Origin: Idiomarina sp. X4
Lineage (GTDB): Bacteria; Pseudomonadota; Gammaproteobacteria; Enterobacterales; Alteromonadaceae
Length of the DNA stretch: 64,000 bases
Assembly (NCBI RefSeq): GCF_002808045.1
Contig: NZ_CP025000.1
Coordinates: 2,232,001-2,296,000 of the forward strand
Direction: 5' to 3'
The notes beneath the pieces were generated by a model. The model was not told the DNA's origin. It ran no database searches and saw only the letters and a program-made list of their open reading frames with translations. Below, in pieces: positions 3,461 to 26,986 of the stretch; positions within the stretch are counted from its first letter, which is position 1; the number at the start of each line of letters is the position of its first letter. A program made the position numbers and the translations under genes.

Positions 3461-5512
3461 ATGCAAAGCTTTAAACCTTCCTTAATAGCGTTGGTTGTTT
3501 CCAGCGCTCTTATTCATTCCGCTACCGTGTCCGCACACGACGGCATTGAACGCGTGTTGGTATCCGGCCACCAGGCCAACTTAGTTGGGCAGGCAATGTC
3601 CGCTTCAGAGGGCGTACTGGGACAGGAAGAAATTGAGATTCGGCCCATGTTGCGTACGGGGGAGCTCATGGAGCTGATTCCGGGCATGAGTGCGACCCAA
3701 CACAGCGGCAGTGGTAAAGCCAATCAATACTTCTTGCGCGGGTTTAATTTGGACCATGGTACAGACTTTGCGACCTACGTGGACGGCATGCCCATCAATA
3801 TGCCAACCCACGGACACGGTCACGGTTATACCGACATTAACTTTTTGATCCCCGAACTGATTGATCAGGTGGTGTACCAAAAAGGCTCATACTACGGTGA
3901 CGTTGGCGACTTTTCCGGCGCAGGGAGCGTAGGCTTTAGCACACAAATGAGCCGTAAAAAGGGACTGGCCAAAGTCAGTGTGGGCGAAGACGCCTATCAG
4001 CGTATTCTTCTGGCCGATGATGTATCACATGGCAGCCGCAGCAGTACGTTGTATGGCTTAGAGTATCAAACCTACAACGGCCCCTGGACCGATGTAGACG
4101 AAGACGTGAACAAATTGAACGCGGTTGCTCGCCACAGCATTCGAACCGACAATGGCTTGCTAACACTGGGCGCTATGGGCTACAAAAATGAATGGAACAG
4201 CGCTGATCAAATCCCCGCACGAGCGGTTGAGCAGGGGCAAATTGACGAGCTGGGTTCTATCGACGATACCCTGGGCGGTAAAACTCATCGATACAGCCTG
4301 AACGCGATTTATACCACCATGGACTACGCCTTAACGGCGTACGTGATCGACTACGACTTATCGTTGTTTTCTAACTTTACCTATTATCTGGACGATCCGC
4401 TGTTAGGCGATCAGTTTGAGCAGGTGGATAATCGCCGGGTTTATGGTGCGTCGGGTAACTGGCATCCCGATAACAACATTACGTTAGGCTTTTCCACGCG
4501 ATATGACGACATACAGGAAGTCGGGCTCCACACATCGCAAGAGCGCGAACGTCTGGGCACGGTCAGAAACGACGCCGTAAACGAGTGGAACACCGGGGTT
4601 TACGCCAGCTACGACTATCAATTGACGGACCGCTTAAGAACCAACGTATCGCTGCGCTACGACTACTTTCACTTTGATGTGGACTCATTGCTTAATACCA
4701 ACGTTAACGGTGTTAACCTTAACGCCAATAACGGCACTGCATCGGACAGTATCTGGTCGCTGAAAGGTAACGCCAATTATCTGCTGACCGACACCGCGGA
4801 GTTGTATTTGTCTGCCGGGCAGGGGTTTCACTCGAACGACGCTCGCGGCACGGTCACACAAGTTGACCCGAACAACGGCGATGCAATAGCACCGGTTGAC
4901 CCGTTAGTGCGCACCTTTGGTTATGAACTGGGCTTACGCTGGCGTCCGACCACAAGTTTTAACAGCTCGGTGGTATTGTGGTCGCTAGAGCAAGACAGCG
5001 AACTGCTGTTTGTCGGCGACGCGGGAAATACCGAAGCCAGCCGGCCGTCAAAGCGCCAGGGCATTGAGTTGGCCGCGTACTACAACATTACGGATACGCT
5101 CAGTCTGGATCTCGAATACGCTTACACCAACGCCGAGTTTGATGACGGCAACGCCGCCGAAAAAGACATACCGGGCGCGCTGGAAGACATATTGCAGTTG
5201 GGCGTCACCAAACGCTTTAACGACAACTGGTTTTCTACCGTACGGTTGCGTTATCTGGGGGAGCGGCCCCTGGTGGAAGACAACTCAGAACGCTCAGACA
5301 CCTCCACCGTAGTGAACGTGCTGGTGGGCAAGCAATGGCAAAACTGGTCGATGAATCTGCAAGTGTTGAACCTTTTTGACAGCAACGACCACGATATTGA
5401 CTACTTTTATGCGTCACGCCTGCCGGGCGAACCGGCTAACGGCGTTGAAGATTTGCACTACCACGTGATGGAACCGCGGACGGTGCGCTTTGAGCTGAGT
5501 TACTCGTTTTAG
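3461..5512 (+). CDS. TonB-dependent outer-membrane receptor
   Basis: This 683-aa protein has an N-terminal signal peptide (about 1-25, cleavage near SAHDG). A plug domain follows (about 45-165, with MLRTGELMELIPGMS and YFLRGFNLDHGTDFATYVDG), then a long beta-barrel ending in a C-terminal aromatic residue (FELSYSF), as outer-membrane proteins do. It should import a TonB-energised ligand. The ligand is unknown; the plug carries a His-rich loop (PTHGHGHGYTD, about residues 109-119). It stands alone, with a Dps-like gene downstream in the same direction but outside an obvious operon. Confidence 0.9.
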   Translation: MQSFKPSLIALVVSSALIHSATVSAHDGIERVLVSGHQANLVGQAMSASEGVLGQEEIEIRPMLRTGELMELIPGMSATQHSGSGKANQYFLRGFNLDHGTDFATYVDGMPINMPTHGHGHGYTDINFLIPELIDQVVYQKGSYYGDVGDFSGAGSVGFSTQMSRKKGLAKVSVGEDAYQRILLADDVSHGSRSSTLYGLEYQTYNGPWTDVDEDVNKLNAVARHSIRTDNGLLTLGAMGYKNEWNSADQIPARAVEQGQIDELGSIDDTLGGKTHRYSLNAIYTTMDYALTAYVIDYDLSLFSNFTYYLDDPLLGDQFEQVDNRRVYGASGNWHPDNNITLGFSTRYDDIQEVGLHTSQERERLGTVRNDAVNEWNTGVYASYDYQLTDRLRTNVSLRYDYFHFDVDSLLNTNVNGVNLNANNGTASDSIWSLKGNANYLLTDTAELYLSAGQGFHSNDARGTVTQVDPNNGDAIAPVDPLVRTFGYELGLRWRPTTSFNSSVVLWSLEQDSELLFVGDAGNTEASRPSKRQGIELAAYYNITDTLSLDLEYAYTNAEFDDGNAAEKDIPGALEDILQLGVTKRFNDNWFSTVRLRYLGERPLVEDNSERSDTSTVVNVLVGKQWQNWSMNLQVLNLFDSNDHDIDYFYASRLPGEPANGVEDLHYHVMEPRTVRFELSYSF

Positions 5513-6800: not shown

Positions 6801-7495
6801 TTAACACGAGCCTGAACCAGGAGCTGTCGCGGCGGTAATCGCGGGCATAATAGCTGCAATCATGACTGCGGCCTCAATGGCCTGAACGGCTTCTCTAGCG
6901 GCTTTGGAGACAAGCTCACCGTTTTCCAGTTGTTTAATGCGCTGTTTACGCTCTTTCAGTTCTTGTTTGCTGAATACTTGCGGCAAAAGCTTTGCGCTAT
7001 TGGCCAACGCAACGATGATTGCAACTCGCGGCTCAATGTCTTTGGTGTCACTTAGCACAGCGTCACGCATGTCCTGACGTAGCTCTTGTTCAGGTTTGGG
7101 GTTTATTTCCGGGTAAATTTGGCGCTCAAACAGCCAAAGTACCTTTTCCTTTTCATGAGCAACAATGCCGTTGTCAGCAAGTGCCTGAGCGACTTTGTGT
7201 TTTAAGTTTTTTATACCACCCAACTTTTGCACCCAGTCTTTCAGTTTGCGCTGGCGTTTCGCGCCCGAAATCATTGTTAACGCGTCATCCAGCAACGCGT
7301 CGTGGGTAGCGCGGTCATCGACTACAGCGACTTTGCCTTTATTGTCGCTATCCACTTTTATACGCCCCAACATTAGTAACTCAGCGGCAATGCCCCAGCC
7401 GCTGCGTACTCTACGTATGCACCGTTCATGGTGCCTTCTTCTTCGCGGAGCGACAGAAGCATAAGAGCTTCATACAGTTTTAGAGAGTTGGACAT
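6801..7495 (-). pseudogene. GPP34 (GOLPH3-like) family gene, frameshifted
   Basis: This is a homologue of the intact GPP34-domain gene at 19666-20361, read in two frames. The first piece (7495 down to 7373) encodes SLKLYEALMLLSLREEEGT...YVEYAAAGA and then leaves frame. The second piece (7373 down to 6801) resumes as MLGRIKVDSDNKGK through to the end. Alignment with the paralogue shows one missing G near 7388 (GCATTGCCGCTGAG where the paralogue frame needs an extra base). The break creates a TAATG stop/start overlap, so weak coupled translation of the second part cannot be excluded. GPP34 proteins bind phosphoinositides in eukaryotes; the bacterial role is unknown. A sequencing error is the alternative explanation. 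Confidence 0.8.
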
Positions 7496-7835
7496 AAGTG
7501 CTCCTGTTAAATAAACGTTAACTTTCTGGTAGAGTAAATAGTAAGCGTTTTTAGTTAGGGCAAGCAAGTTTTAGGGGCTCTGTGGGCTAATTAGCATATA
7601 ATTTCTGTCGCAAAGCGACAGCATATGTTACCAGCCAAAATACCGGCACGCTTTAATGGGAGTAGGTTTCGTATAGGCCTGACATGTGACGACCGCTAGA
7701 ATGTCGGGGGACACAGCTCAAGACCAGATTAAGTCGTTTAGTAACGCGCAACCTAATAATGATAAGAGGGAATATTTTATTCCAGATGTACGTGGCTCAG
7801 TAAGGCGTCATTCCTGACTCGTGTTTTCTGAAGGC
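7496..7835. other. Non-coding stretch upstream of cassette array 1
   Basis: I see no credible gene here. It includes the promoter side of the GPP34 gene and a perfect short hairpin near 7606-7622 (CTGTCGC, AAA loop, GCGACAG) without a T run. I found no trace of an integron integrase reading frame, which is what one would expect beside an attI site. Confidence 0.6.
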
Positions 7836-8066
7836 ATTGCGCGCTTTGATATTGTTTTATGCCATTAACTTGTTTAATGTCAGTATCATAACGAAAAATT
7901 AAAGTGTGATATTGCGCATTCGCCGGAATGAAAATGAGCATGCTCGAATTCTTTTTCAGGATTCTGTTTTGAGATAAAGAAAAACACTGGTTATCAGCTG
8001 GTTAAAGCGATATGGGTGCTTTTGGGGCGATACGGAGTGCGCATGCGCAGTATACAAAGGTTAGAT
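7836..8066 (+). repeat. Array leader copy 1, attI-like
   Basis: This non-coding leader of about 230 bp is homologous to 23599-23835, which precedes the second cassette array. Shared exact blocks include the 20-mer at 7901-7920 (AAAGTGTGATATTGCGCATT) and the segment with the perfect palindrome GAGCATGCTC at 7936-7945. A CATGCGCAGTATACAAAGGTTA end leads into the core GTTAGAT (8060-8066), which fits the integron core GTTRRRY. Placement just before the first cassette in both arrays suggests an attI site plus array promoter. There is no integrase gene nearby. Confidence 0.65.
8022..8056 (+). promoter_or_regulatory. Candidate cassette promoter in leader 1
   Basis: A TATACA -10-like hexamer (8051-8056) is conserved as TATATA in the second leader. 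About 17 bp upstream lies a weak -35-like hexamer, and a shared TTTTGGGG block lies further up. It would transcribe the cassettes, all of which are on this strand. The call rests on conservation and position; the -35 match is poor. Confidence 0.4.
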
Positions 8067-8079
8067 TTAAGAGAATCGA

Positions 8080-9102
8080 ATGGATAAAAAGTATCAAGTA
8101 TTCGTAAGTTCAACATATGTTGATCTTTTAGAAGAAAGAAAGGAAGTGATTCAGGCTTTGTTGGAACTAGATTGCATTCCAATAGGTATGGAGTTATTCC
8201 CGGCATCCGATGATGATCAGTGGACTTTTATTAAATCTGTTATTGATGATTGTGATTACTACGTCTTGGTTCTAGCTGGCAGGTATGGGTCTTGCTCTGA
8301 ATCAGGAATAGGTTATACCGAAATGGAGTATAGATATGCGCTGGAATCAGGAAAGCCTGTAATTGCATTCTTGCATAAAGACCCAAGGTCTATTCCTGCT
8401 AAGTTTACTGAAACTGAACCTGAATTAAATAAAAAACTGGAATCATTTAGAGGTCTTGCTCAAAAGAAATTATGCAAGTTTTGGGAAACTCCCGCTGAGC
8501 TAGCAGGTATTGTTGGAAGAAGCATTGTGCAACTCAAAAAGCGATCTCCGGCAGTTGGTTGGGTTAAAGCAGATCTCGTTCCAAGCGAAGATTCAGCGCA
8601 GGAGATCCTGAGACTTAAAAATGAAATCGAACGTCTTAAAGAAGAACTGGAAAACACGTCTACAGCTGGAGTTAATACTGAGGAGCTGTCACAAGGTGAT
8701 GAACGTTTTGAGTTCGAATATATCGGGAAAGCAAAAATTGATTATTTTGATTGGCATGAAGCAAAGTTAACGGCAGCTGTGCCCTGGAATACAATTTTTG
8801 GGGCGCTAGCTCCGCTTATGGCTGATGAGTCTGATGAGCAATCGCTTCAATCTCGATTTAGACAGCTGATAGTTAAAACTGAAGAAGATAATATGCGACC
8901 TCTGCAGGGGTTTGGTCAACGAGAACTTTCGGCCACATTCGAGCATGATGTCTTCGACACTATAATTGTACAATTTCGTGCTCTGGGACTTATACAGAAA
9001 AGCAAGAGAAACAGAAGCGTCAAGGATAAGAGAACATACTGGTGTCTTACCGAAAAAGGCGACAATCTTCTTGTCGGTTTGAAGGCGATAAGAAAAATCT
9101 AA
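8080..9102 (+). CDS. DUF4062 domain protein (cassette 1)
   Basis: This 340-aa protein opens with a DUF4062 domain (about 1-115): KYQVFVSSTYVDLLEERKEV, then MELFPASDDDQW and GRYGSCSESGIGYTEMEYRYA. A short coiled coil follows (about 183-200, EILRLKNEIERLKEELEN). The C-terminal region ends in a winged-helix-like segment (about 290-335, LGLIQKSKRNRS...YWCLTEKGDNLL). DUF4062 domains often head NACHT/TPR or other predicted immune proteins, where they are thought to take the sensor or signalling place that TIR domains take. Here the domain stands alone with a possible nucleic-acid-binding tail. It is the first cassette after the leader, so the best expressed if the leader is a promoter. Confidence 0.85.
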   Translation: MDKKYQVFVSSTYVDLLEERKEVIQALLELDCIPIGMELFPASDDDQWTFIKSVIDDCDYYVLVLAGRYGSCSESGIGYTEMEYRYALESGKPVIAFLHKDPRSIPAKFTETEPELNKKLESFRGLAQKKLCKFWETPAELAGIVGRSIVQLKKRSPAVGWVKADLVPSEDSAQEILRLKNEIERLKEELENTSTAGVNTEELSQGDERFEFEYIGKAKIDYFDWHEAKLTAAVPWNTIFGALAPLMADESDEQSLQSRFRQLIVKTEEDNMRPLQGFGQRELSATFEHDVFDTIIVQFRALGLIQKSKRNRSVKDKRTYWCLTEKGDNLLVGLKAIRKI

Positions 9103-9168
9103 CAAGCGCATGTTGTCGGACTGGTTTTCCGCTGCGCTCCAAACCAGCCGCAAATGCGAGCGTTAACT
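9097..9168 (+). other. attC site 1A
   Basis: It begins ATCTAACAAGCGC and ends GCGTTAACT. The internal arms CTGGTTTTCCGC / GCTCCAAACCAG pair around a GCGCT-type loop. It is almost identical to the attC at 25762-25833 in the other array, differing at one internal base and after the GTTA core. Confidence 0.9.
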
Positions 9169-9184
9169 TACCCAAGGGAGCTCC

Positions 9185-10177
9185 ATGAAGTCTCGATCTC
9201 GCTTAATGCTTGAAAAATCTATCGCAGCAATGCTGTCTGCAATAGAGATATACAATAAACCTGACTTCAAGTATCGCGAGGAGACTTTTTCTGTGCTGTG
9301 CATTAACTCTTGGGAGTTATTGTTAAAAGCAAAAGTTCTCAATTTGGCCAGTAATAAAGTGGCTTCACTTTATGCAATGGAATATAGAACCTTAAAAAGT
9401 GGAAAGAAATCTACGGTTAAGAGGCCAAAAACTAATCGATCCGGAAACCCTCTTTCAATTAATCTTTTTGAAGCCTATCGGATCGCTACCGAGGATTATG
9501 GCGTTAAGATAGACAAAGCGGTATATGACAATTTGGTCGCGCTTACTGAAATTAGGGATAATTCAATACATTTTGTGAATGATGACTTGCTCTTGTCCCT
9601 GAAGATTCAGGAGCTAGGCAGTGCATCACTGCAAAACTACCTCCACCTTGTATCTAGTTGGTTTGGTGATGTCCTATCAGGATATAATTTTTACCTCATG
9701 CCACTGTCTTTCTTTCGAAACTTCAATGAAGCCCCCGGTGTTTCGCTCAACTCAAATGAACGTAAAGTTCTAGAGTACATAAAAAAGTCAGAAGAGGGGT
9801 ATGATAGCAGCGAAGATGTTGGCGATTACAACTTGACTCTGAGAATTGATGTTAAATTCCAGAAAGTTAAGAGCACGTCTGGTTTGCCTGTTCAGGTCAC
9901 TAATGATTCAAGTGCCACCGCAGTATATTTGTCAGAAGAAGATTTTGCGGATAAGTATCCGTGGGATTACGATATCCTTAGTACGCGGTTGTCCAAGCGA
10001 TATTCTGATTTCAAGATGAACGCCAAATATCACAGAATCAGAAAAAAATTGGAAGGAGATAAGAAATTTGCGTACGAGCGACTTCTGAACCCTAAGAATC
10101 CTAATGGTGGAAAAAAGACATTTTATAACCCGAATATTCAGAAAGAGTTCGATAAACATTATACAAAGATAAGTTAA
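9185..10177 (+). CDS. DUF3644 / HEPN-like protein (cassette 2)
   Basis: This 330-aa protein starts at ATG behind CAAGGGAG. The N-terminal half resembles DUF3644: LMLEKSIAAMLSAIEIYNKP, VLCINSWELLLKAKVLNLA, and an EIRDNSIHFVND block at about 118-129. The last block resembles the RxxxxH signature of HEPN domains (R120...H126). HEPN proteins are commonly RNases or scaffolds in abortive-infection and toxin systems, so a defence role is plausible but inferred. The C-terminal half (about 200-330) is basic and unrecognised. It sits alone in its cassette with no partner gene. Confidence 0.7.
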   Translation: MKSRSRLMLEKSIAAMLSAIEIYNKPDFKYREETFSVLCINSWELLLKAKVLNLASNKVASLYAMEYRTLKSGKKSTVKRPKTNRSGNPLSINLFEAYRIATEDYGVKIDKAVYDNLVALTEIRDNSIHFVNDDLLLSLKIQELGSASLQNYLHLVSSWFGDVLSGYNFYLMPLSFFRNFNEAPGVSLNSNERKVLEYIKKSEEGYDSSEDVGDYNLTLRIDVKFQKVKSTSGLPVQVTNDSSATAVYLSEEDFADKYPWDYDILSTRLSKRYSDFKMNAKYHRIRKKLEGDKKFAYERLLNPKNPNGGKKTFYNPNIQKEFDKHYTKIS

Positions 10178-10219
10178 CAAGGCATTGCAGCGGACAAGCC
10201 GCTGAATGCGGCGTTAAAT
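10172..10219 (+). other. attC site 2A (short)
   Basis: A compact 48-bp site, AGTTAACAAGGC to GCGTTAAAT. The arms GCATTGCAGCGG and CCGCTGAATGC pair almost fully, giving a short hairpin with little loop. It overlaps the stop of the DUF3644 gene. Confidence 0.85.
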
Positions 10220-10232
10220 ATAAGGAGATCGA

Positions 10233-10643
10233 ATGGAAAGCTTAGGTATAGTTGAAGTTGTATCTTTAATAGCGAGTCTAGCATCTTTGATTCTGGCAAT
10301 GGTTGCTATTCATGCAGCTAGAAGTTCAGAGAAAGAAGTGAGAGATAACTTCGAAAAAACTCAGAAAATGATGGTCGACTATGAGTCCAGAATAAAAGAC
10401 GTTCTCTCTGAGATTGATAAAAAGTCTGCGATTATTGAAAAGACGGTTTCCGAGTCTCAGAAAGACTTAATGGCTACAATGACTAATATCATCAATGAAA
10501 CTGTTATTCCTAAAAAGGAAGATATGGGGGAGCAGTTTGCAATGATGTTTGCGCAGCAGCTTTTAACTAACCCCGAGCAAGCTAGTGGTATGATGGGGGC
10601 GCTGCAGCCATTTATTGATATGGCACAAAAGGAAGGGAAATAA
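10233..10643 (+). CDS. Small membrane-anchored coiled-coil protein (cassette 3)
   Basis: An unrecognised 136-aa protein. It has one N-terminal transmembrane segment (about 7-28, VVSLIASLASLILAMVAIHA). A charged, likely coiled-coil stretch follows (about 30-85), then a Met/Gln-rich C-terminus (FAMMFAQQLLTNPEQASGMMG). The start follows TAAGGAG at a good distance. The architecture (membrane anchor plus cytoplasmic helix) is common among cassette-encoded proteins of unknown role, and no function can be assigned. Confidence 0.75.
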   Translation: MESLGIVEVVSLIASLASLILAMVAIHAARSSEKEVRDNFEKTQKMMVDYESRIKDVLSEIDKKSAIIEKTVSESQKDLMATMTNIINETVIPKKEDMGEQFAMMFAQQLLTNPEQASGMMGALQPFIDMAQKEGK

Positions 10644-10646
10644 TAT

Positions 10647-10718
10647 ATTTAACAAACTGCTGCACACGGAAAAATTACTCGCTACGCTCCTAATTTTCCG
10701 GTGAGCAGGGCGTTAGTT
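10647..10718 (+). other. attC site 3A
   Basis: Runs from ATTTAACAAACTGC (matching RYYYAAC) to GGGCGTTAGTT. Central arms of the type CGGAAAAATTA / TAATTTTCCG flank a CTCGCTACGCTCC loop. Confidence 0.9.
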
Positions 10719-10731
10719 TATCAGGTGATAT

Positions 10732-11151
10732 ATGGACTTTTTGAGTTTAACTATAGGTTTTCTTGTTGGCACAGCTACTGGTGCAGCAGGAACTTATTTT
10801 GGTAATAAATATACTGATATTCGTAAAGCTAAAGAGTACAAAACAGTTGAAGAGTTATTCTATAAAAAGCTTTGGAGTGAGCACGAGAAATTACTTTCTG
10901 AAATGAAATCTGATTTAACTAACCCTGATTTTAGTTATCATCGAGAGTTCTATGTATTGAGCAAAAGCTGGATGTTTAATGCTTCTGGACCACACTTGTC
11001 ATATTATCTGGAAGACCATGATTCACTTGAGCAACAGTTAAAATCATTGGTTGGTAAAGGGCTAATTGTTGATGTCACTGAGTTTGGTAAAAGCGTAACA
11101 AAATATCAGTTTACAGATAAATTTGTTGAGCACTTAAAAGTCGTAAACTAA
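10732..11151 (+). CDS. Membrane-anchored protein with winged-helix-like tail (cassette 4)
   Basis: An unrecognised 139-aa protein. It has a glycine-rich N-terminal membrane segment (about 4-24, LSLTIGFLVGTATGAAGTYF) and a helical middle. The C-terminal stretch (about 100-136, LEQQLKSLVGKGLIVDVTEF...YQFTDKFVEHL) has the helix-then-beta-wing pattern of winged-helix domains. A membrane-tethered regulator is one reading, but this is pattern inference only. It is the only gene of its cassette. Confidence 0.72.
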   Translation: MDFLSLTIGFLVGTATGAAGTYFGNKYTDIRKAKEYKTVEELFYKKLWSEHEKLLSEMKSDLTNPDFSYHREFYVLSKSWMFNASGPHLSYYLEDHDSLEQQLKSLVGKGLIVDVTEFGKSVTKYQFTDKFVEHLKVVN

Positions 11152-11244
11152 CAAGTTGCTTAATTTCGTTCCGGCCACAAAAAGCGTGGCCTCCACTGGA
11201 CTGCCTACGCTGCGCTGCGGCAGCCAATTAGCAAAGCGTTATGC
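11146..11244 (+). other. attC site 4A
   Basis: A 99-bp site from AACTAACAAGTTGC to GCAAAGCGTTATGC. It has paired arms (GGCCACAAAAAGCGTGGCC and CTGCCTACGCTGCGCTGCGGCAG form internal hairpins). Confidence 0.85.
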
Positions 11245-11291
11245 ACGCATGCGTTGCGTTTTTGTGAACTCGTAAAAGGAATAACCTATAA

Positions 11292-13004
11292 ATGAAAGTG
11301 TTTTATCAGAAAGGGAGTAATTGGCGCGCAACGCCAGCCAAACTACCATCTGAAAATACCATGCTTTCTTTATCGTTCAATAATTGGGACGACTATGGGA
11401 TAAGTACTACCCTTAACGCAGTATTGTACGTTGATGGAGAGAGCTTTTTTGAATTTGGCCTAAAGCTCCTAATTGAAAATGATATTTACTCTCCAAAGAA
11501 GCTAAACGAGCTATGCGAGGGTGGCTGGGATGGATTTTTTCCTATTCCGGAACTTAACTACGTATCGGTCCCAAGTGATATTGACTTTTATAACGCATTA
11601 ATCGCTAAAGTAGGCTTTGATGAAGCTAAAGATGTTCTCAATGCTATAAGAGATGCAGGCTATTTTGAGAATATATTAGGGGATCAAAAAGCAATTGATT
11701 TGATTAAGCACGATGATTTTTCCACTTCACCTCTCAGGGAGGCCGGAGCAAGAAAGGCTTATGAAGACGGCTGGAAGCTGTTTAGCGATGAACAGTCAAG
11801 TATAAAAGATTTCACACTCAATACTATAAAAAAAGATGGTTTGGTTGAGCCAATTCGTTTCAATTTTAATTCTAAATTACTTCCTTATGACATTAATGTA
11901 CTAATTGGTGAGAATGGGATAGGGAAGTCCTATACATTGAAGTCCTTGGTCGAATACTGGCTGGGTGTGGATCGGGGAAGCAAGGTTGCACTTGACGGGA
12001 TACAGCATGAACCATTTGACCATTATCCAAATATTTCTAAGCTGATTCTCATATCATATAGCCCGTTTGAAGAGTTTACTATTGATTTATCTGAGACCAC
12101 TCTGAAGGATAAAGATGCTTATAGATACTTTGGTTTTCGTAGGATCGTTGAAAGCTCAGATGGTCATCAAAGGATAGGTATTAGTAGGAACCTGCCAGCA
12201 AGCGATTCTGTATCGTCAATTTTAAAGTCACTCTATGATGATATGAAGTTTGGTGAGTTGCCTAGCTGGACAAATAAGTTCGAAACTATACTTTCTGTCC
12301 TTATGTCAGCCATCGAATTCGATTTCATAGCATTTGAAATTGTCGAGGGTGTTGATATATTTGATCAGATACCGGATTTCTCCGAATTTATAGTTGGTGA
12401 AGATAATAGGTATCTAAGGATTGATGAGAGTGTAATTCGGACGATAGATGAGTGGAAAATTGAACTAAAGGATTGCATTAAATTCGAATCTGGTGCTGTT
12501 TTTATCGGGGATGATAAGGCGATTGAGATCAGCTCTGGACAAAGGCTGTTCTGCTACATTGTGGTTAATGTTGTTGGGCAAATAAGGAAAGACAGCTTGG
12601 TTGTCATTGATGAGCCTGAACTTTTCTTGCATCCCGCACTTGAAATTGAGTTTGTTGAGCTGCTTAAAAGGGTTCTGAAAGCCTTCACATCTAAAGCAAT
12701 TTTGGCTACTCATTCTTTAGCTATCACTAGAGAGGTCCCAGCCAAGTGTGTACACGTCTACCGAAAACAAAATGATACAGTTGAAGTAGAGTATCCTCCC
12801 TTTGAAACGTTTGGTGGGGATATGCAAAGAATTTCATCATACGTTTTTGGTGATAACTCTATTACGAAGCCGTTCGATAGCTGGCTGCAAGAGCAGCTGG
12901 CCATCTATGCAGACCCCCAAGATATTATTGATCAACTTGGGGATGAGATTAATGAGGAAATGTTGATAAAACTGATTAACTCAAGGAAGTCTGATGGTAT
13001 CTAA
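11292..13004 (+). CDS. AAA ATPase of a Septu-like defence pair (cassette 5, gene 1)
   Basis: This 570-aa ABC/SMC-type AAA ATPase is of the kind found in PtuA, OLD and similar defence proteins. The first ~190 residues are a distinctive N-terminal region. Walker A is GENGIGKS at 206-213, a signature-like SSGQR lies at about 414-418, and Walker B is VVIDEPELFLHP at about 436-447. An ILATHSLAITREVP switch region follows. It overlaps the downstream HNH nuclease gene by 11 bp, with AAGGAAG just ahead of that gene's ATG, so the two are co-translated. By analogy with PtuA-PtuB this would be the sensor/ATPase half of an anti-phage nuclease. The defence role is inferred from architecture. Confidence 0.8.
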   Translation: MKVFYQKGSNWRATPAKLPSENTMLSLSFNNWDDYGISTTLNAVLYVDGESFFEFGLKLLIENDIYSPKKLNELCEGGWDGFFPIPELNYVSVPSDIDFYNALIAKVGFDEAKDVLNAIRDAGYFENILGDQKAIDLIKHDDFSTSPLREAGARKAYEDGWKLFSDEQSSIKDFTLNTIKKDGLVEPIRFNFNSKLLPYDINVLIGENGIGKSYTLKSLVEYWLGVDRGSKVALDGIQHEPFDHYPNISKLILISYSPFEEFTIDLSETTLKDKDAYRYFGFRRIVESSDGHQRIGISRNLPASDSVSSILKSLYDDMKFGELPSWTNKFETILSVLMSAIEFDFIAFEIVEGVDIFDQIPDFSEFIVGEDNRYLRIDESVIRTIDEWKIELKDCIKFESGAVFIGDDKAIEISSGQRLFCYIVVNVVGQIRKDSLVVIDEPELFLHPALEIEFVELLKRVLKAFTSKAILATHSLAITREVPAKCVHVYRKQNDTVEVEYPPFETFGGDMQRISSYVFGDNSITKPFDSWLQEQLAIYADPQDIIDQLGDEINEEMLIKLINSRKSDGI

Positions 13005-13854
13005 AGTTCGGCTTCCCGAAGAGGACTCCCTAGAAATTTTGAGAGATATAATAAATGAAAGGCATAGATATAGGTCCTTCTACGATCGGATTACGAATGA
13101 CCTTATATCTCAAGCAGAGATGTTCATAGAGCATAACGGTAACCCGTTAATGCTTACTCCACTTGACTTAAAAAACTATACAGATTCTGAAGAAGAGGCT
13201 AATCAACGTAAGAAATCCTTGATTGGTCTATACACTCCTAAGGACGAAAAGCTACCCTTCCTGCAGCTGGAGGCCATGAGGAAACGTAACGGGCTAGTTG
13301 TTTGCCCAAGCTGTGGGGAACCTGGAAGGCCGAGAACTCTAGATCATTATCTTCCTAAAGACGTATTTCCTGAGCTTTCAGTTTTGCTGTTGAACTTAAC
13401 GCCAATGTGTGACTGGTGCCAAGGAGAGAAACTAACAGACTATATTACTGAGGACGGTCAGAAGAGATACATTCATCCTTATTTTGATGACGTGGACAGA
13501 CCTTTGTTTTCAATAACATTCATTCCCCCATTTGCTACTCCTTCAATAGATATCGCTGTCAGTGAAGAAATATCAGAAGAACTAAGCTTACTTGTTAAGT
13601 CGCATTTAGAAGGAATCGATTTTCTCACTCGTTTTAAAGAGTACTTTAGGACTAGGTATATAAGTGTTCTACGTAGAGCTAAAGCCTGCCGGCAGGATGA
13701 AAGCAAAAAAATACGGGAGTTATTAACCCTTTTTATAGAAATGGAAGAGGAAAAGTCTATTAACTCATGGGATGCTGTACTATACAGATCTATTATTGAA
13801 AATGATGAGTTGATGGAGTACCTAGAGAATAGCGTACTGCCTGACAACTTATAG
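12994..13854 (+). CDS. HNH nuclease partner, PtuB-like (cassette 5, gene 2)
   Basis: This 286-aa protein has an HNH/zinc-finger nuclease core. C104-P-S-C107 and C139-D-W-C142 would bind zinc. LDHYLPKDVFPEL supplies the catalytic D117-H118, and NLTPMCDWC gives the N residue of the motif. Such ATPase-HNH pairs are known as Septu (PtuA-PtuB), also found as retron effectors. I see no reverse transcriptase or retron RNA here, so this would be a stand-alone pair. The N-terminal ~95 residues and the helical C-terminal ~100 residues are unrecognised and may mediate ATPase contact. Confidence 0.78.
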   Translation: MVSKVRLPEEDSLEILRDIINERHRYRSFYDRITNDLISQAEMFIEHNGNPLMLTPLDLKNYTDSEEEANQRKKSLIGLYTPKDEKLPFLQLEAMRKRNGLVVCPSCGEPGRPRTLDHYLPKDVFPELSVLLLNLTPMCDWCQGEKLTDYITEDGQKRYIHPYFDDVDRPLFSITFIPPFATPSIDIAVSEEISEELSLLVKSHLEGIDFLTRFKEYFRTRYISVLRRAKACRQDESKKIRELLTLFIEMEEEKSINSWDAVLYRSIIENDELMEYLENSVLPDNL

Positions 13855-13870
13855 ACTACGGTTTAGCCGT

Positions 13871-13955
13871 GCATAACAAGGCCAGGCACGGCGACGTCTT
13901 TTCCGTTGCGGCTTCGCCTCCACTACAAAGCCGCGCATGCTGGCTGGCGTTATGT
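13871..13955 (+). other. attC site 5A
   Basis: Begins GCATAACAAGGCCAGGC and ends GCTGGCTGGCGTTATGT. It contains a TTGCGGCTTCGCCTC-type loop between complementary arms. Confidence 0.88.
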
Positions 13956-13981
13956 GATCAGCCCAACGAAGGAATACTGCT

Positions 13982-14200
13982 TTGCGGAAAGAACTTAGAG
14001 AAAAGATTATCGAAGTATGTGATCTAAAAATAGAGAAAAAAGGCGCGGCGGTGGGGCTTTCGTTTTACGCATTTTTTAAGAACAAAAACGATCAGCCGGA
14101 GGTTCTCATGGAAGCGGCTCGGTGGTGGATAGAAACTCATAAATTGGATCACTTCGAAAAAGCAATAAAGATCAAAGATATGGTCAAAGCCGGTGTTTAG
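13982..14200 (+). CDS. Small hypothetical protein (cassette 6)
   Basis: An unrecognised 72-aa soluble, mostly helical protein (e.g. VLMEAARWWIETHKLDHFEK at about 40-59). I use the TTG start at 13982 because GAAGGA lies 8 bases upstream and no ATG gives a better length. It fills a short cassette between two attC sites, which supports it being a real gene. No function can be assigned. Confidence 0.68.
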   Translation: MRKELREKIIEVCDLKIEKKGAAVGLSFYAFFKNKNDQPEVLMEAARWWIETHKLDHFEKAIKIKDMVKAGV

Positions 14201-14215
14201 CTTTGGCTTCACATC

Positions 14216-14308
14216 ACATAACAAACGGCTGTTGTCACCCCTTCTGGGCTGGGACGGCCTTTTCGCCGCTGCGCGGCTACAAGTCCGCCCCAAAGCCGGG
14301 CGTTATGT
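14216..14308 (+). other. attC site 6A
   Basis: From ACATAACAAACGGC to GCCGGGCGTTATGT. The inner arms are GGGCTGGGACGG.. and ..CCGCCCC around a CGCTGCGCGG segment. Confidence 0.88.
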
Positions 14309-14342
14309 GCTGTAACTGTTAAATTCTGTGCAAGGAAAAGGC

Positions 14343-14540
14343 ATGCGAACTTTATTTGTGACAATTTTAGCGATAGCGGCAGTAGGTGTTGCATATCAGT
14401 TTATTCCTTCGGTACTGGTTACAACTGGTTTGGAGACGAACCTCTTCGCTTGGGTATGTATGCTGATTGGCGCAGTCCTAGGAGGACTACTAATTTGGTT
14501 GGGCATAATCAACGCGAGAAAGGTTGATACTGGTCAGTAA
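14343..14540 (+). CDS. Small two-helix membrane protein (cassette 7)
   Basis: An unrecognised protein of about 65 aa with two hydrophobic segments: an N-terminal one (about 3-20, TLFVTILAIAAVGVAYQF) and a second at about 37-57 (AWVCMLIGAVLGGLLIWLG). ATG at 14343 is preferred over GTG at 14328 because AAGGAAAAG sits just upstream. It is the sole gene of a small cassette. Confidence 0.68.
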   Translation: MRTLFVTILAIAAVGVAYQFIPSVLVTTGLETNLFAWVCMLIGAVLGGLLIWLGIINARKVDTGQ

Positions 14541-14604
14541 TATGACAAAACACCGGTTCGAGAATGCCATGCGGCAGAGAAATTGTTATACCGTAGCATT
14601 ATGC

Positions 14605-14651
14605 ACATAACAAGACGCAGCAGCACGCACCTACGGTGCTGGGCGTTAGCT
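14605..14651 (+). other. attC site 7A (short)
   Basis: A compact 47-bp site from ACATAACAAGACGCAGCAGC to GCTGGGCGTTAGCT. The GCAGCAC / GTGCTG arms surround a short loop. Confidence 0.85.
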
Positions 14652-19640: not shown

Positions 19641-19675
19641 AAAAAACTCTAGGGTTGCCGATACCTCAGCAACCC
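19641..19675 (-). terminator. Terminator of the intact GPP34 gene
   Basis: On the minus strand GGGTTGC and GCAACCC form a stem that overlaps the GPP34 stop codon, followed after TAGAG by a run of six T. Confidence 0.6.
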
Positions 19676-20361
19676 CCGGAAGTAGGTGCTGAGGCTGCCG
19701 TTATGGCAGGCATAATAGCGGCTATCATGACTGCAGCTTCAATGGCCTGAACGGCTTCTTTGGCGGCTTTAGACACTAGCTCACCATTTTCTAGCTGTTT
19801 TATGCGTTGTTTGCGGTCTTTCAGTTCTTGCTTACTGAATACTTGCGGTAATAGCTTGGCGCTATTGGCTAATGCGACGGCAATAGCTACTTTAGGTTGA
19901 ACTTCATCGGAATCAGTTAGCACTGCATCACGCATGGCCTGACGCAGCTCTTGCTCAGGTTTTGGATTAACCTCCGGGTAAACTTGGCGTTCAAATAGCC
20001 ACAACACTTTCTCTTTTTCATGAGACACAATGCCATCATCAGCGAGTGCTTGTGCAACTTTATGTTTCAGGTTCTTAATACCGCCAAGCTTGTGGACCCA
20101 GTCTTTTAGTTTTCGTGGACGCGTGGCTTCAGTAATCATCGTGAGGGCTTCATCCAACAGTGCGTCGCCAGTAGGGCTGTCATCGAGCACCGCAACTTTA
20201 TTTTTATTGGCTTCATCAACCTTAATCCGATGCAGCAGCAGTAACTCAGCGGCTATGGCTCCGGAGGTTGCGTATTCCACGTACATACCACTCATGGTGC
20301 CTTTTTCTTCGCACAATGCGAGCAGCATAATAGCTTCGTAGAGTTTTAAATTTTCTGGCAT
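19666..20361 (-). CDS. GPP34 (GOLPH3-like) family protein
   Basis: This 231-aa helical protein is of the GPP34 family: LYEAIMLLALCEEKGTMSG, GAIAAELLLLHRIKVDE, then a helix-rich body with KDWVHKLGGIKNLKHKVAQA and EKEKVLWLFERQVYPEVNP. Its Ala/Ile-rich C-terminus (about 200-225) could associate with a membrane. Eukaryotic GOLPH3/Vps74 binds phosphatidylinositol-4-phosphate and Golgi enzymes; the bacterial function is unknown. It is the intact paralogue of the frameshifted copy at 6801-7495 and shows what that copy originally encoded. Confidence 0.85.
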   Translation of the reverse strand: MPENLKLYEAIMLLALCEEKGTMSGMYVEYATSGAIAAELLLLHRIKVDEANKNKVAVLDDSPTGDALLDEALTMITEATRPRKLKDWVHKLGGIKNLKHKVAQALADDGIVSHEKEKVLWLFERQVYPEVNPKPEQELRQAMRDAVLTDSDEVQPKVAIAVALANSAKLLPQVFSKQELKDRKQRIKQLENGELVSKAAKEAVQAIEAAVMIAAIMPAITAASAPTSGGC

Positions 20362-23598: not shown

Positions 23599-23835
23599 TG
23601 TTGCACGGTTTAGCATTGCTTTATGGGATTAACTCTTTTATCGTCAGATATATAACAAAAAATCAAAGTGTGATATTGCGCATTAGATTCAACGAAAGTG
23701 AGCATGCTCGAATTGTTTTTCGGGTAAACTTGGATTAAGGGTAAGAATAGTGCTTATTACCAGTGAGTTAAGACGGTTAGGAATGCTGCTTTTGGGGGTT
23801 ACAAAATGGGCATGCGCAATATATAAATGTTAAAT
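23599..23835 (+). repeat. Array leader copy 2, attI-like
   Basis: A second copy of the leader at 7836-8066. It shares the identical 20-mer AAAGTGTGATATTGCGCATT (23665-23684), the palindrome block TGAGCATGCTCGAATT (23699-23714), a TTTTGGGG block and CATGCGCAATATATAAATGTTA. It ends in GTTAAAT (23829-23835), matching GTTRRRY. The stretches between these blocks are diverged, so it is an old duplication whose blocks have been retained. Confidence 0.65.
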
Positions 23836-24295
23836 GTCTATGATCGATCACGATAAATTCCGGGCCTTGGTCACGCAGCTCTATGCCACGGTAAATGAGT
23901 TGGAGGCCATGTTCCCGGGCAGGCACTTTACCCCGGATGGTCATATGGTTGGCAGTTTGGGTGAATGCCTCGTGGCCGATGCATACAATCTTGAGTTGAA
24001 GACAGCGTCCAATAAAGGCTATGACGCTCTCACTGAAACCGGCGTGGAAGTTGAGATCAAAGCTACGCAATCCAACTCTGTTGCATTCCGCAGTCAGCCG
24101 CAGCACGCGATTATCATCAAAATCTTGCGTGACGGTACGTTCGAGGAAATTTATAACGGGCCAGGAGCCCTTGTTTGGGAGCAATTCAAAGGTAAACGGC
24201 TACCTAGTAATGGCCAGTTTCAAGTCTCTCTCAACAAACTCCGGCAACTCAATCAAACAGTGGCTCAATCGGACCGTGTGCCTAGGGCCATTTAA
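23834..24295 (+). CDS. DUF6998-like, possible nuclease-fold protein (array 2, cassette 1)
   Basis: A 153-aa protein whose central part reads GSLGECLVADAYNLEL ... GYDALTETGVEVEIKATQ (about 40-82). That is a conserved Glu, then a D, then an E-x-K-like EIK, the order seen in PD-(D/E)XK-type nuclease folds. I match it tentatively to the DUF6998 family. The start codon overlaps the array core at 23829-23835, so no ribosome-binding site of its own is visible. An alternative ATG lies at 23840. Function unproven. Confidence 0.7.
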   Translation: MSMIDHDKFRALVTQLYATVNELEAMFPGRHFTPDGHMVGSLGECLVADAYNLELKTASNKGYDALTETGVEVEIKATQSNSVAFRSQPQHAIIIKILRDGTFEEIYNGPGALVWEQFKGKRLPSNGQFQVSLNKLRQLNQTVAQSDRVPRAI

Positions 24296-24391
24296 CAAGG
24301 CGCAGCAGTACGCGGCCGGTGGCCGCCGGACGCCCTTTACGTGGCTCCTTCGTCGCCACTCCAAGGTCGCCGCTGTGCTTCGGCGTTAGAG
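24290..24391 (+). other. attC site 1B
   Basis: A long (102-bp) site from ATTTAACAAGGCGCAGC to GCTTCGGCGTTAGAG, with GC-rich internal arms (GCGGCCGGTGGCCGC and CGTGGCTCCTTCGTCGCCACTCC). Confidence 0.88.
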
Positions 24392-24431
24392 CTCACGCAG
24401 TCCTGAATAACAGCATTATTAAAGGAGTAAA

Positions 24432-25070
24432 ATGCAAAACCTTGTAAAACATACCCTTTACCTTTTTCTATGTATTACTGGCCTAACGGCTGCTATTACG
24501 TTAGCAGGTATTTGCTATGCTTGGTTTTTTGCGGAAGCGAAAGAACTCCCCCATTTGGAATGGCTAATAGGCTCTGTGATTGTAGAGGTGGTCGCGGTGA
24601 TCCTTATGCTTGCAAAAAAAGGATTGAAATATCTACCTGATACACAGACCGATAAGGAGCCAAAAGACACTCTTAAGTTTATGGAGAGTTTTATTTCTAC
24701 GGGCACTAGTGCAACTGTCGTGAGTAACCGAGTGTCATGGCTGGCAGGTGACGATAAACTTATATCGATTCTTCAATCAAAAATTGAAAAAGGCACTCGC
24801 ATTGAAATTATCACTCCAAATGAAGTTCCAGAGGCACTTAGAGAAAAGTTGAATGGCGCATCTTTTATTGTCACAAAAGAAAATGTATCACCGGAAGCTA
24901 GATTTACATTAGTGAATGGAGATCGCAGCGGCGCTGAAAAGCTCGCCATTGCTCGTGGAGTTCACCCTGACCACGAGATTACAATCTTTGACAACAATTC
25001 TGGCCCCCAAATAATTGCGATGGCGAAGGACATAATTAGAAAATCAAAGGAGTTGGCTAATGCCGAATAG
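24432..25070 (+). CDS. Membrane-anchored protein, degenerate PLD-like domain (array 2, cassette 2, gene 1)
   Basis: A 212-aa protein with two N-terminal transmembrane helices (about 8-36 and 44-64) and a cytoplasmic domain of about 130 residues. That domain (TATVVSNRVSWLAGDDKLIS, KGTRIEIITPNEVPEAL, ARFTLVNGDRSGAEKLAIAR) follows the strand-helix order of one phospholipase-D-like half but lacks the HxK catalytic motif. It could be a nucleotide- or ligand-sensing domain instead; this is inference. Its 3' end overlaps the methyltransferase gene by 11 bp, so the two form a unit carried by one cassette. Confidence 0.68.
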   Translation: MQNLVKHTLYLFLCITGLTAAITLAGICYAWFFAEAKELPHLEWLIGSVIVEVVAVILMLAKKGLKYLPDTQTDKEPKDTLKFMESFISTGTSATVVSNRVSWLAGDDKLISILQSKIEKGTRIEIITPNEVPEALREKLNGASFIVTKENVSPEARFTLVNGDRSGAEKLAIARGVHPDHEITIFDNNSGPQIIAMAKDIIRKSKELANAE

Positions 25071-25767
25071 GTGGTGCAATTCGGCGCAAATACGTCGAGA
25101 GCAAATTGAGTCAGGTGCAGACTTAACATTCAACGAGGTTTTTAAGCCGCTTTTAATTAGTCGAATTAAGAGCCTTTCACCTAGCAATGTCCTGGAAGTA
25201 GGCGCTGGAACTGGTCATATTTCCAAAGAGTTATCTAAATTAGGTTTTTCTGTTACAGCAATAGAGCCATCTGCCGGAATGTATGGGGTCGCAAAAGACG
25301 TCTTGTCTTTAACCGATGTAAGATTGTTGAATTGTACTTCACTCGAATTAGAGAAAAACGAACTTTATGAGGTTGCTTTCTCCCATCTTGTTGCACACGT
25401 TGTTGATGACCTTAATGAGTTTTTTGAATCAGTCGGGCGTCACCTGAAAACCACCAGTCATTTTATTTTTTCAATCCCTCACCCCTGCTTTTATAATGAA
25501 TATAAGGGGTTTTTCGGAGATGAATATAATTATATGACTCCAATGACCAAGAGCGTGTCATTTACCATCACTAAAGATTCAAAAAATACGATTAGTGGAG
25601 TGCCGTACCATCACAGACCGTTATCAGAGTACATTAATAAGCTGGTTGAGTCTGGTTTCGCTATTGATGGCTTTGACGAAACCTATCCAGAAGAAGATAT
25701 ACAATTAAAATATGGAGCCAAATGGGAGTCGCCGCGATACTGTGTGTTTACCTGTAGAAAGCTCTAA
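25060..25767 (+). CDS. Class I SAM-dependent methyltransferase (array 2, cassette 2, gene 2)
   Basis: This 235-aa protein has the SAM-binding motif I VLEVGAGTGHISKELSKLGF (about 44-63), the acidic post-I residue in TAIEPSAGMYG, and the typical small-molecule methyltransferase layout. The target is unknown. It resembles ubiquinone/menaquinone-type methyltransferases in general fold only. It starts 11 bp inside the upstream membrane-protein gene behind AAAGGAG, so the two products are made together and may act together. Confidence 0.82.
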   Translation: MPNRWCNSAQIRREQIESGADLTFNEVFKPLLISRIKSLSPSNVLEVGAGTGHISKELSKLGFSVTAIEPSAGMYGVAKDVLSLTDVRLLNCTSLELEKNELYEVAFSHLVAHVVDDLNEFFESVGRHLKTTSHFIFSIPHPCFYNEYKGFFGDEYNYMTPMTKSVSFTITKDSKNTISGVPYHHRPLSEYINKLVESGFAIDGFDETYPEEDIQLKYGAKWESPRYCVFTCRKL

Positions 25768-25833
25768 CAAGCGCATGTTGTCGGACTGGTTTTCCGCTGC
25801 GCTCCAAACCAGCCGCAAATGCGGGCGTTATGT
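25762..25833 (+). other. attC site 2B
   Basis: It begins CTCTAACAAGCGC and ends GCGGGCGTTATGT. It is nearly identical to the site at 9097-9168 of array 1, with one internal base different plus the bases after GTTA. Confidence 0.9.
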
Positions 25834-25850
25834 TTCTAAGGATAGGGTTT

Positions 25851-26222
25851 ATGAACCTCAAAGAGTTTATTTCGGAAAGCATTGTTGAGATAGTTGAGGG
25901 GATTGTTGATGCTCAGTCTAGAATTCAATCAGATGACGCCAAAATTGTTCCTGAAATCAGTAAGGTATTCACCCAGTCACAAACAGGTGGAACAAACTTA
26001 GCGCTAGGCTGGGATAAACAAAGTAATTTAATTCATTCTGTTGAATTTGATATTGCAGTTACTGCAAATGAGGGAACTGAAACAAGAGGTGGAATTGGAG
26101 TTGTAGCTGGTGTTTTTGCTTTAGGCTCTCAAGGTAAGTCTTTAGAAAGTAATCAATCAATATCACGGTTAAAGTTTCGAGTGCCAATTTCTTTTCCAAG
26201 GCATGGTGCTGACGAAACATAA
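25851..26222 (+). CDS. Trypco2-like small protein (array 2, cassette 3)
   Basis: A 123-aa protein beginning MNLKEFISESIVEIVEGIVD, a helix. A beta-rich part follows: VEFDIAVTANEGTETRGGIG, FALGSQGKSLESN, then SISRLKFRVPISFP. The order is helix, VEFDIAVT strand, glycine turn and terminal R-L-K-F-x-V-P strand. It resembles the trypco2 domain (trypsin-co-occurring domain 2) that accompanies predicted conflict-system proteases. The match is by eye and needs a profile search. ATG 25851 is preferred over 25830, which falls in the attC, because AAGGATAGGG precedes it. Confidence 0.66.
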   Translation: MNLKEFISESIVEIVEGIVDAQSRIQSDDAKIVPEISKVFTQSQTGGTNLALGWDKQSNLIHSVEFDIAVTANEGTETRGGIGVVAGVFALGSQGKSLESNQSISRLKFRVPISFPRHGADET

Positions 26223-26318
26223 CAAGCCAATTAAGGCGGGACTGCTAAAGCTTGGCTCGGTTTCGCTCCGCTACACAGTTTAGCCAAGCATTATCAGCCC
26301 CTTATTGGGGCGTTATGC
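26217..26318 (+). other. attC site 3B
   Basis: A 102-bp site from ACATAACAAGCC to CTTATTGGGGCGTTATGC. It has a CTAAAGCTTGGCTCGG... / ...CAGTTTAGCCAAG internal pairing with a TTTCGCTCCGC loop. Confidence 0.88.
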
Positions 26319-26331
26319 ATAAGGATTCAGT

Positions 26332-26892
26332 GTGATAAAAAAATTGTGCCTGCTGTTAGTTGTTGCCTTGATCCCTACATTAGCCTGGTCGTATGCAAAG
26401 CCGTTTAGATTTATTCTCCCGCAATTAAACGGAGTGCAATGTAACGGCTCCGTTTGCGTCGAGGACCCAAATGACATGGGGCAGGCTATTGAGTTGTATG
26501 GCTCCGCCATAACAAACGTATCTGCTTCCGGCATAGCGCTCGAGACCAAACCAAAGTTTGTTTACTGCTCTACCACAGAGTGTTATCAATCGTTCGGGGG
26601 CGGCAATGAACGGGCTATTTCTTATCCTTTTCTCGGTACAGTGATAGCGCCAGAATCGTGGCAAATCTACATTACTCAGCATGAGTTGGTTCATTGGTTT
26701 CAGTTTTTGGAAATTGGTTCGGTTTCGACCATGAGGAAACCTGAATGGTTTAGAGAGGGTATGGCGTATGTGTACAGCGGCGCACCAGAATCAGATATTC
26801 CTGAACACTACCTGCCCATCATGCAAAGATACAGAAAATGGCATTCAGACAAATCCTGGCCAGAAGTTATTCATCAAGCGACGCAGCTCTGA
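26332..26892 (+). CDS. Secreted zincin-like metalloprotease homologue (array 2, cassette 4)
   Basis: This 186-aa protein has a signal peptide (about 1-21, CLLLVVALIPTLAWS) and a gluzincin-type metal site. The HExxH motif is H117-E-L-V-H121 (ITQHELVHWFQF), and EWFREGMAY supplies a third ligand, E142, 21 residues after the second His. Four cysteines (37, 42, 79, 84) could make disulfides in the periplasm. The start is GTG behind AAGGA. It is probably a small exported peptidase; the substrate is unknown. Confidence 0.78.
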   Translation: MIKKLCLLLVVALIPTLAWSYAKPFRFILPQLNGVQCNGSVCVEDPNDMGQAIELYGSAITNVSASGIALETKPKFVYCSTTECYQSFGGGNERAISYPFLGTVIAPESWQIYITQHELVHWFQFLEIGSVSTMRKPEWFREGMAYVYSGAPESDIPEHYLPIMQRYRKWHSDKSWPEVIHQATQL

Positions 26893-26895
26893 CAT

Positions 26896-26971
26896 GCATA
26901 ACCAGGCAATTAACTACGCGCCTGCGGCGCCGGACGCTCGTACCTCGCGCCGGTTATTGCGGCGTTAAGAA
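26896..26971 (+). other. attC site 4B
   Basis: From GCATAACCAGGC to TTGCGGCGTTAAGA, with arms CTGCGGCGCCGG and TCGCGCCGG-type pairing. Confidence 0.85.
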
Positions 26972-26986
26972 CAAGAAAACAATATT

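Follow-up and report, generated by a model that had tools for sequence, protein, structure and literature searches.

Two cassette arrays and their leaders

The window analysed here, 64,000 nucleotides of Idiomarina sp. X4 (contig NZ_CP025000.1, positions 2,232,001 to 2,296,000), carries two cassette arrays on the + strand that were delineated by an attC scan and contain no intI: array 1 (8060..14650) with seven attC sites (at 9100, 10175, 10650, 11149, 13874, 14219, and 14608) and array 2 (23829..26972) with four (at 24293, 25765, 26220, and 26899). The score threshold of -12, at which the scan has a background of about 1.9 hits per shuffled 64 kb on both strands, is passed by 9 of these 11 sites, and the two lower-scoring ones were taken by eye; the site at 11149 is weak with a score of -8.2, and that at 26899 scores -11.8. 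Further scan hits at 17251 and 22075 fall within genes with other, known functions and were rejected as attC, though the raw attC counts around leader copies given below still include them. The cargo of the arrays comprises candidate phage-defence genes (PDC-S19 and PDC-M01A/B, detected with PADLOC) together with DUF4062, DUF3644, and DUF6998 proteins, a methyltransferase, and an acetyltransferase; the DUF6998 protein (PF22522, Pfam) is encoded by the first cassette ORF of array 2 (23834..24295, + strand). Both arrays are contained in the interval between sucD and the acyl-CoA dehydrogenase gene ACAD (window 502-30263), a variable region of the genus that exceeds 27 kb here versus about 1.2-2.2 kb in five genomes (L149-L153). 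One near-identical attC occurs in each array behind different genes (9091-9165 and 25756-25830, 96% over 75 nt), and array 1 is directly followed by a Mutator-family (IS256-like) transposase gene (15124-16365).

With at least two attC sites each and no intI nearby, the two arrays resemble CALINs as delimited in the definition given in PMC9024848 (at least two attC sites in an array, no intI nearby). The genome of strain X4 holds no integron integrase at E<=1e-20 (TIGR02249), so that both arrays classify as CALINs and not as parts of a complete integron. Unlike plain CALINs, each of them still begins with a conserved attI-type leader.

Leader copy 1 (7837..8066, + strand; nhmmer alignment start at 7806) heads array 1, and leader copy 2 (23601..23835, + strand), which is located between rhlE and ACAD, heads array 2. 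Both are regarded as attI-type platforms without intI, which for copy 1 is based on its homology to copy 2 and to the attI regions adjacent to intI in sister genera (see below). A repeat search of the window paired 124 nt of the two leaders without gaps (7837-7960 with 23601-23724, 78% identity), and BLAST in the 2.617 Mb genome matched leader 2 to leader 1 with 72% identity over query positions 18-247 (E 8e-27) and gave no third copy at E<=1 save one 17-base match. The leaders end in the attI cores GTTAGAT (8060..8066, + strand) and GTTAAAT (23829..23835, + strand) that both fit GTTRRRY, and the first cassette begins directly after each of them. The initial annotation was thus right to see homologous non-coding leaders at the head of both arrays, given this E value, the GTTRRRY ends, and the + strand attC sites downstream. 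Upstream of both leaders lie chromosomal genes and not cassettes. The gene adjoining leader 1 (6801-7373) encodes a GPP34 protein (PF05719, Pfam), an assignment that replaced an earlier one as TerB-like; a related gene lies at 19666-20361 (79% alike over 300 nt), and the relative of the GPP34 gene in G015 likewise adjoins a leader, in this case a truncated one.

The leaders share an exact 20-mer AAAGTGTGATATTGCGCATT (at 7901 and 23665), an exact 16-mer TGAGCATGCTCGAATT (at 7935 and 23699), and an exact block TGCTTTTGGGG (at 8017 and 23787). The 20-mer (7901..7920 in copy 1, + strand) contains a ATATTGCGC motif with near-fixed spacing across copies, and the palindrome GAGCATGCTC (7936..7945 in copy 1 and 23700..23709 in copy 2, both + strand) is recognized by its sequence, its place in the shared blocks, and its conservation. 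As had been anticipated from the window pair, conservation is block-wise: In an alignment of 54 dispersed leaders (effective number 23), columns 71-90 reach values of 0.89 and 0.87, columns 131-150 reach 0.85 and 0.90, and columns 161-190 only 0.51-0.55. Among the blocks that the initial annotation had listed, the 20-mer, the palindrome, and TGCTTTTGGGG held up, but a TTTTGGGG block is, by eye, confined to the subfamily of the window leaders. The 5' part of the leaders follows the pattern TTTAA-N-TCGTTTA-N-TGTCAAT-N-ACATA and leads into a palindrome TGAGCATGCTC, after which a variable spacer and a 3' end bearing TATACAAATGTTA complete the element. ATATTGYGC-like motifs (ATATTGYGCR-like), as listed for the 32 of 48 copies that passed the match limits, sit at alignment positions 92, 167, and about 308, with intervals of 75 and about 142 nt in the majority of copies, and the one nearest the core is inverted. 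They are candidate integrase sites.

The initial annotation had also proposed a cassette promoter in the leader. The most conserved block (7864..7892, + strand; ATTAAC - 17 nt - CATAAC), with its conserved TTTAA..CATAA stretch, is a candidate for it; a consensus scan detected no consensus sigma-70 promoter in either window leader. Leaders and native attI regions of sister genera have GTCA-N4-CATAA in common, which could be the -10 element of Pc, and the leader probably holds a cassette promoter from which the first cassettes would be transcribed. The sister-genus attI regions carry neither the GAGCATGCTC palindrome nor ATATTGYGC motifs.

Leader copies across the Idiomarina group and homologues beside intI

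Using leader copy 1 as a query, we obtained matches at E<=0.01 in 17 of 60 genomes (own included), of which 15 are among the 19 of the same genus; the matches in G026 (without nhmmer hit) and G031 (only 23 bases) were dropped. An iterated nhmmer model then gave 48 leader copies in 15 Idiomarina genomes with 2 to 7 copies per genome, a count that leaves out two hits below 30 bits and includes a pair in G017 (1402692/2180711) that sits in an identical 3.5 kb duplication. Two pieces in G010 (178792 and 177905; L052, about 12900-14050) look like one leader split by ~0.9 kb. Across the family, a leader of subfamily A matched 44 of 395 genomes at E<=1e-5, comprising all 19 of the own genus, 20 of g51 (in essence Pseudidiomarina), four of g11, and one of g49 with a weak 97-nt match. 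An exact pattern scan of GTDB contigs similarly returned 27 stretches, 25 of them in records named Idiomarina or Pseudidiomarina, and the remaining two (MAGs L163 and L170) were set aside as chance since nhmmer found no leader there. Neither query had a BLAST match in plasmids, the subfamily A query had none in phages, and the leader motif pattern had no exact match in viral contigs.

The leader copy of G001 is up to 94% identical to copies in g51, and the best match reaches at least 90% in 10 of the 20 matching g51 genomes. A midpoint-rooted FastTree phylogeny of 62 distinct long leaders places seven intI-adjacent attI regions of g51 in one clade (0.998), groups the window copies with the rhlE-locus copies of G002, G004, and G011 (0.998), unites the greB-locus copies (0.784), and resolves subfamily A as a mixed-genus group. 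The multiplication of the leaders is a dispersal through the Idiomarina group and not a duplication within one genome.

Whether a leader copy lies beside an intI gene had been named as a check, and the deciding evidence came from such copies in sister genera, with a further one at an intI remnant in G010. Of 29 chosen g51 and g11 genomes, 12 have intI above the cut-off (one of them class-1-like). At 8 of the 15 intI loci retrieved from these two genera, the eight being spread over seven genomes, a full-length leader homologue is located divergently beside intI (nhmmer E 1e-9 to 1e-14). The intI gene is intact at three of the eight (L264, L265, and L266), nearly full at L271, and broken at L274-L277; the distance from the leader to the aligned part of intI is 38-68 bp at seven loci and 235 bp at L274, where the aligned part begins late. 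An attC follows the leader homologue at seven of the eight loci, at six of them within 1.5 kb. The other seven intI loci have no adjacent full-length leader. Five g11 loci yielded nothing, weak matches, or, in the case of L272, a partial match on the opposite flank of intI; L273 is cut off by a contig edge, and L278 is without a leader. Against these 8 of 15 stand 0 of 29 control intI loci with a leader (nhmmer, E<=10, default filters, 109 kb), the controls being 28 loci from other genera of the family, the best-scoring ones rather than all, plus a class-1-like locus from g51.

One leader of G010 starts some 40 bp away from the beginning of an intI pseudogene. At the protein level, this remnant shares 74-79% identity with the IntI of six among the eight loci, 59-61% with two other g11 IntI proteins, and no more than 51% with IntI of the other genera compared. 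Because of the intI-adjacent homologues in sister genera and the IntI identity of the G010 remnant, the view that the leader is an attI, as the initial annotation had suspected, and the native attI region of the Idiomarina group is well supported, and it has the descent expected of an attI, namely from the region between intI and the first cassette. No native intact intI was found at E<=1e-20 in 19 Idiomarina genomes; apart from a class-1-like intI in G014 and the G010 remnant, the matches at this cut-off span no more than about 65-75 positions at the C-terminus and resemble general tyrosine recombinases; across the family, 291 of 395 genomes have an intI match at E<=1e-60.

Cassette joints and chromosomal positions of the leaders

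The rhlE locus of leader copy 2 permits a comparison among species, with a leader in strain X4 itself (G000) and in G002, G004, and G011 and an empty site with a short rhlE-ACAD spacer in G001. Behind the leader follow DUF6998 in G000, a cassette X and then DUF6998 in G004, X and then another cassette in G011, and a different first cassette in G002, with all joints at GTT in the four species. Cassettes have thus been gained or lost precisely at G|TT at this locus, as is asked of an attI site, and the same DUF6998 cassette starts at GTT in G010 behind a leader from a different locus with just 61% identity. The joints show the pattern expected of attI x attC recombination, and integrase activity at the leaders would postdate the occupation of these loci. 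The shared flank of the rhlE locus ends within about 80 bp of the G000 leader.

The attC sites lie strongly to one side of the leaders. In the 2.5 kb downstream, an attC on the strand of the leader was detected for 25 of 48 copies and one on the opposite strand for none, while the 2.5 kb upstream contain three same-strand hits (one being the likely false hit at window 22075) and two on the opposite strand. An attC lies within 4 kb of 24 of the 35 copies with an intact core versus 4 of the 13 core-less ones. Leader copies without attC arrays, which the initial annotation had named as a sign against its reading, do occur but as a minority and not in general: no attC was detected within 4 kb of 11 of the 35 core-intact copies, among which G005 C19 and G015 C6 193928 had less than 4 kb of sequence and G004 1598488 has an attC by eye. 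Core-intact copies end on the right at the GTTRRRY junction, except where an insertion sequence occupies it. An element with a 341-aa transposase and the ends GGTATGGACGCTCCC/GGGAGCGTCCATAG, presumably IS110/IS1111-like, sits precisely at the attI core in two distinct leaders, one in G015 and one in G017 (L061, about 4140-5500, and L081, with the leader at 16646 on the - strand). A 93% match between G015 382882 and G017 1415374 suggested an array exchange via leader homology, an idea that was dropped because the leaders are only about 50% alike and the shared part, by windowed identity, is this same element. G001_C2_490025 and G015_C6_193928 have similar end sequences before ATGTTA.

By their upstream flanks, the 48 copies fall into 32 groups (10 with 2-4 members and 22 single ones), a few of which may be incorrectly divided or lumped. 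In subfamily A, most copies share their left edge, a REP-like hairpin located about 85-100 bp upstream, beyond which the DNA is unrelated. The hairpin has the form GTCCGCT..GAGCG..AGCGGAC (e.g., in L049 at about 3870-3900), sometimes in a longer version with TTGGCAC, and a regular expression for it found 13 instances near leaders and 21 elsewhere in 1.05 Mb, some of them inside genes. Inverted repeats of at least 40 nt are absent from the window by a search that misses short ends. The native array of G346 (L264) has a subfamily A leader within it, with an attC ending about 130 nt before the model start and the longer REP-like form filling the gap between the two; another leader, in G013 (L074), follows a weaker attC-like site in the same arrangement. 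A leader placed behind an attC in this way could be excised within a cassette and then inserted elsewhere.

Origin of the integrase-free leaders

We consider it likely that the leaders are attI platforms of the native integron that were multiplied without intI and loaded with cassettes in trans at G|TT. Of this reading, the homology to intI-adjacent attI, the lack of intI at the copies, and the species-variable GTT joints at one locus are shown by the sequences. Each platform would consist of the GTTRRRY core and some 230 bp of conserved sequence upstream of it, the probable seat of the cassette promoter, and the platforms would have multiplied and spread over the chromosomes without intI. An integron integrase acting in trans, presumably native at first and still extant in some Pseudidiomarina-type relatives, would insert and remove cassettes exactly at G|TT, and the leader would probably transcribe the first of them. 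The lack of IntI in the genome of strain X4 leaves present-day activity of its own leaders unsupported.

Alternatively, each leader could be the remainder of a once complete integron that lost its intI by deletion in place, with attI outliving intI so that no integrase-free duplication would be needed. The greB locus fits this scenario, with the intI pseudogene of G010 retained between greB and the leader and leaders without intI in G015 and G017, as do G381 with two truncated intI genes and G170 and G254 with internally deleted ones, each still beside a leader; for the two window copies, too, a former intI may have been lost on the spot. Yet tblastn with 29 proteins (26 IntI and, from L099, L102, and L111, the products of neighbouring genes) found a clear intI remnant beside only 1 of the 48 Idiomarina copies and one other weak hit (E 0.001) about 4 kb off; in the 27 named stretches, the G010 locus again gave the sole strong match, and weak ones in L164 and L162 (E 8e-5 and 4e-4; 24-26% identity) lie more than 2 kb from the leader. 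Moreover, the common left edge of subfamily A is not expected from independent deletions, and in four species the start of the leader lies near the rhlE promoter, without a gap the size of a gene between the two. We consider local loss rather unlikely. The initial annotation had spoken of leaders duplicated without the integrase: for the dispersed copies this fits, with an intI remnant at 1 of 48 and a common left edge in most of one large subfamily, but as a duplication in one genome it does not, given the dispersal through the group.

That whole islands of leader and array moved together by homologous recombination or insertion sequences, with the leader as a conserved promoter only, would agree with the variability of the array-bearing sucD-ACAD interval and with subfamily A leaders up to 94% identical across genera, which suggests transfer. 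We find it quite improbable, however, as the same locus and leader carry different first cassettes with the joint always at GTT and one cassette is shared between leaders from different subfamilies. The idea that the leader is a generic repeat of intergenic DNA (MITE or REP) in front of cassettes by chance, which the initial annotation had put up as a possible refutation, could draw on the REP-like hairpin that marks the left edge of one subfamily and is present elsewhere too and on the leader copies in 32 upstream-context groups. The GTTRRRY junction at the right end of core-intact copies, the strongly directional cassette side, and the absence of BLAST matches in plasmids (both queries) or phages (subfamily A query) and of exact pattern matches in viral contigs nonetheless make it very improbable, and the homologues adjoining intI in relatives and a distribution tied to cassettes mostly rule it out.

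As attI platforms, the leaders resemble the attI/Pc region of sedentary chromosomal integrons in their homology, GTTRRRY core, and GTT joints, but they have no intI beside them and occur in several copies per chromosome. Each integron has only one attI according to the account in a Treponema paper on integron loss (PMC3607928), and the description of the detection program in PMC9024848 states that attI outside class 1 is poorly described and goes undetected, so that leaders of this kind would be overlooked. A native integron with inactivated intI and CALINs at other conserved loci is described for Xanthomonas (PMC12444791), which parallels the intI decay in Idiomarina and the persistence of arrays at fixed secondary loci, though the description given there characterizes these loci by attC clusters and mentions no dispersed attI copies. 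In delta-attI cassettes of class 1 and 2 integrons, attI DNA duplicated in arrays is recombined by IntI1, mostly as attI pieces of 14-18 nt with one of 244 nt and one complete attI1, all in mobile integrons as far as that account goes (PMC12901181). The leaders close behind an attC in G346 and, with a weaker attC, in G013 are similar, whereas complete leaders at the start of distinct chromosomal arrays, in at least two genera, are not, and the window leaders do not replace an attC after a cassette ORF as delta-attI does. Insertion at attG, as outlined in PMC12444791 and PMC12901181, places cassettes at non-att genomic sites and could likewise give integrase-free arrays away from intI, but such arrays need no attI and those of the window have one. 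PMC9668308 adds CALINs in archaea. For dispersed intI-less attI leaders, we found no report in the open-licence literature.

The usual picture of an integron is a single attI next to a single intI. If attI platforms can spread and endure in the absence of that gene, integrase-free arrays would be more than dead debris: they could retain a promoter and a site for insertion and be filled anew once an integrase appears. The leader also provides a sequence handle for finding arrays that a standard tool would miss, and it hints at how short arrays, which here carry candidate phage-defence genes, reach many chromosomal positions in the Idiomarina group. Only tentatively do we extend this to a distributed integron, a possibility to which we give somewhat less than even weight: mobile attI platforms would cross loci and genera without intI, any integrase present, whether native or in transit, would load several of them at once and thereby serve several first-position promoters per genome, and subfamily A would be a unit from the REP-like hairpin to the attI core that is able to sit in arrays like a cassette. 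A full-length class-1-like IntI (508 bits) is encoded in G014 (L044, about 7000-12000) in what we take, from its ORFs, to be an acquired class 1 integron and therefore set aside as not native; it is a possible in-trans source of integrase in a genus without its own.
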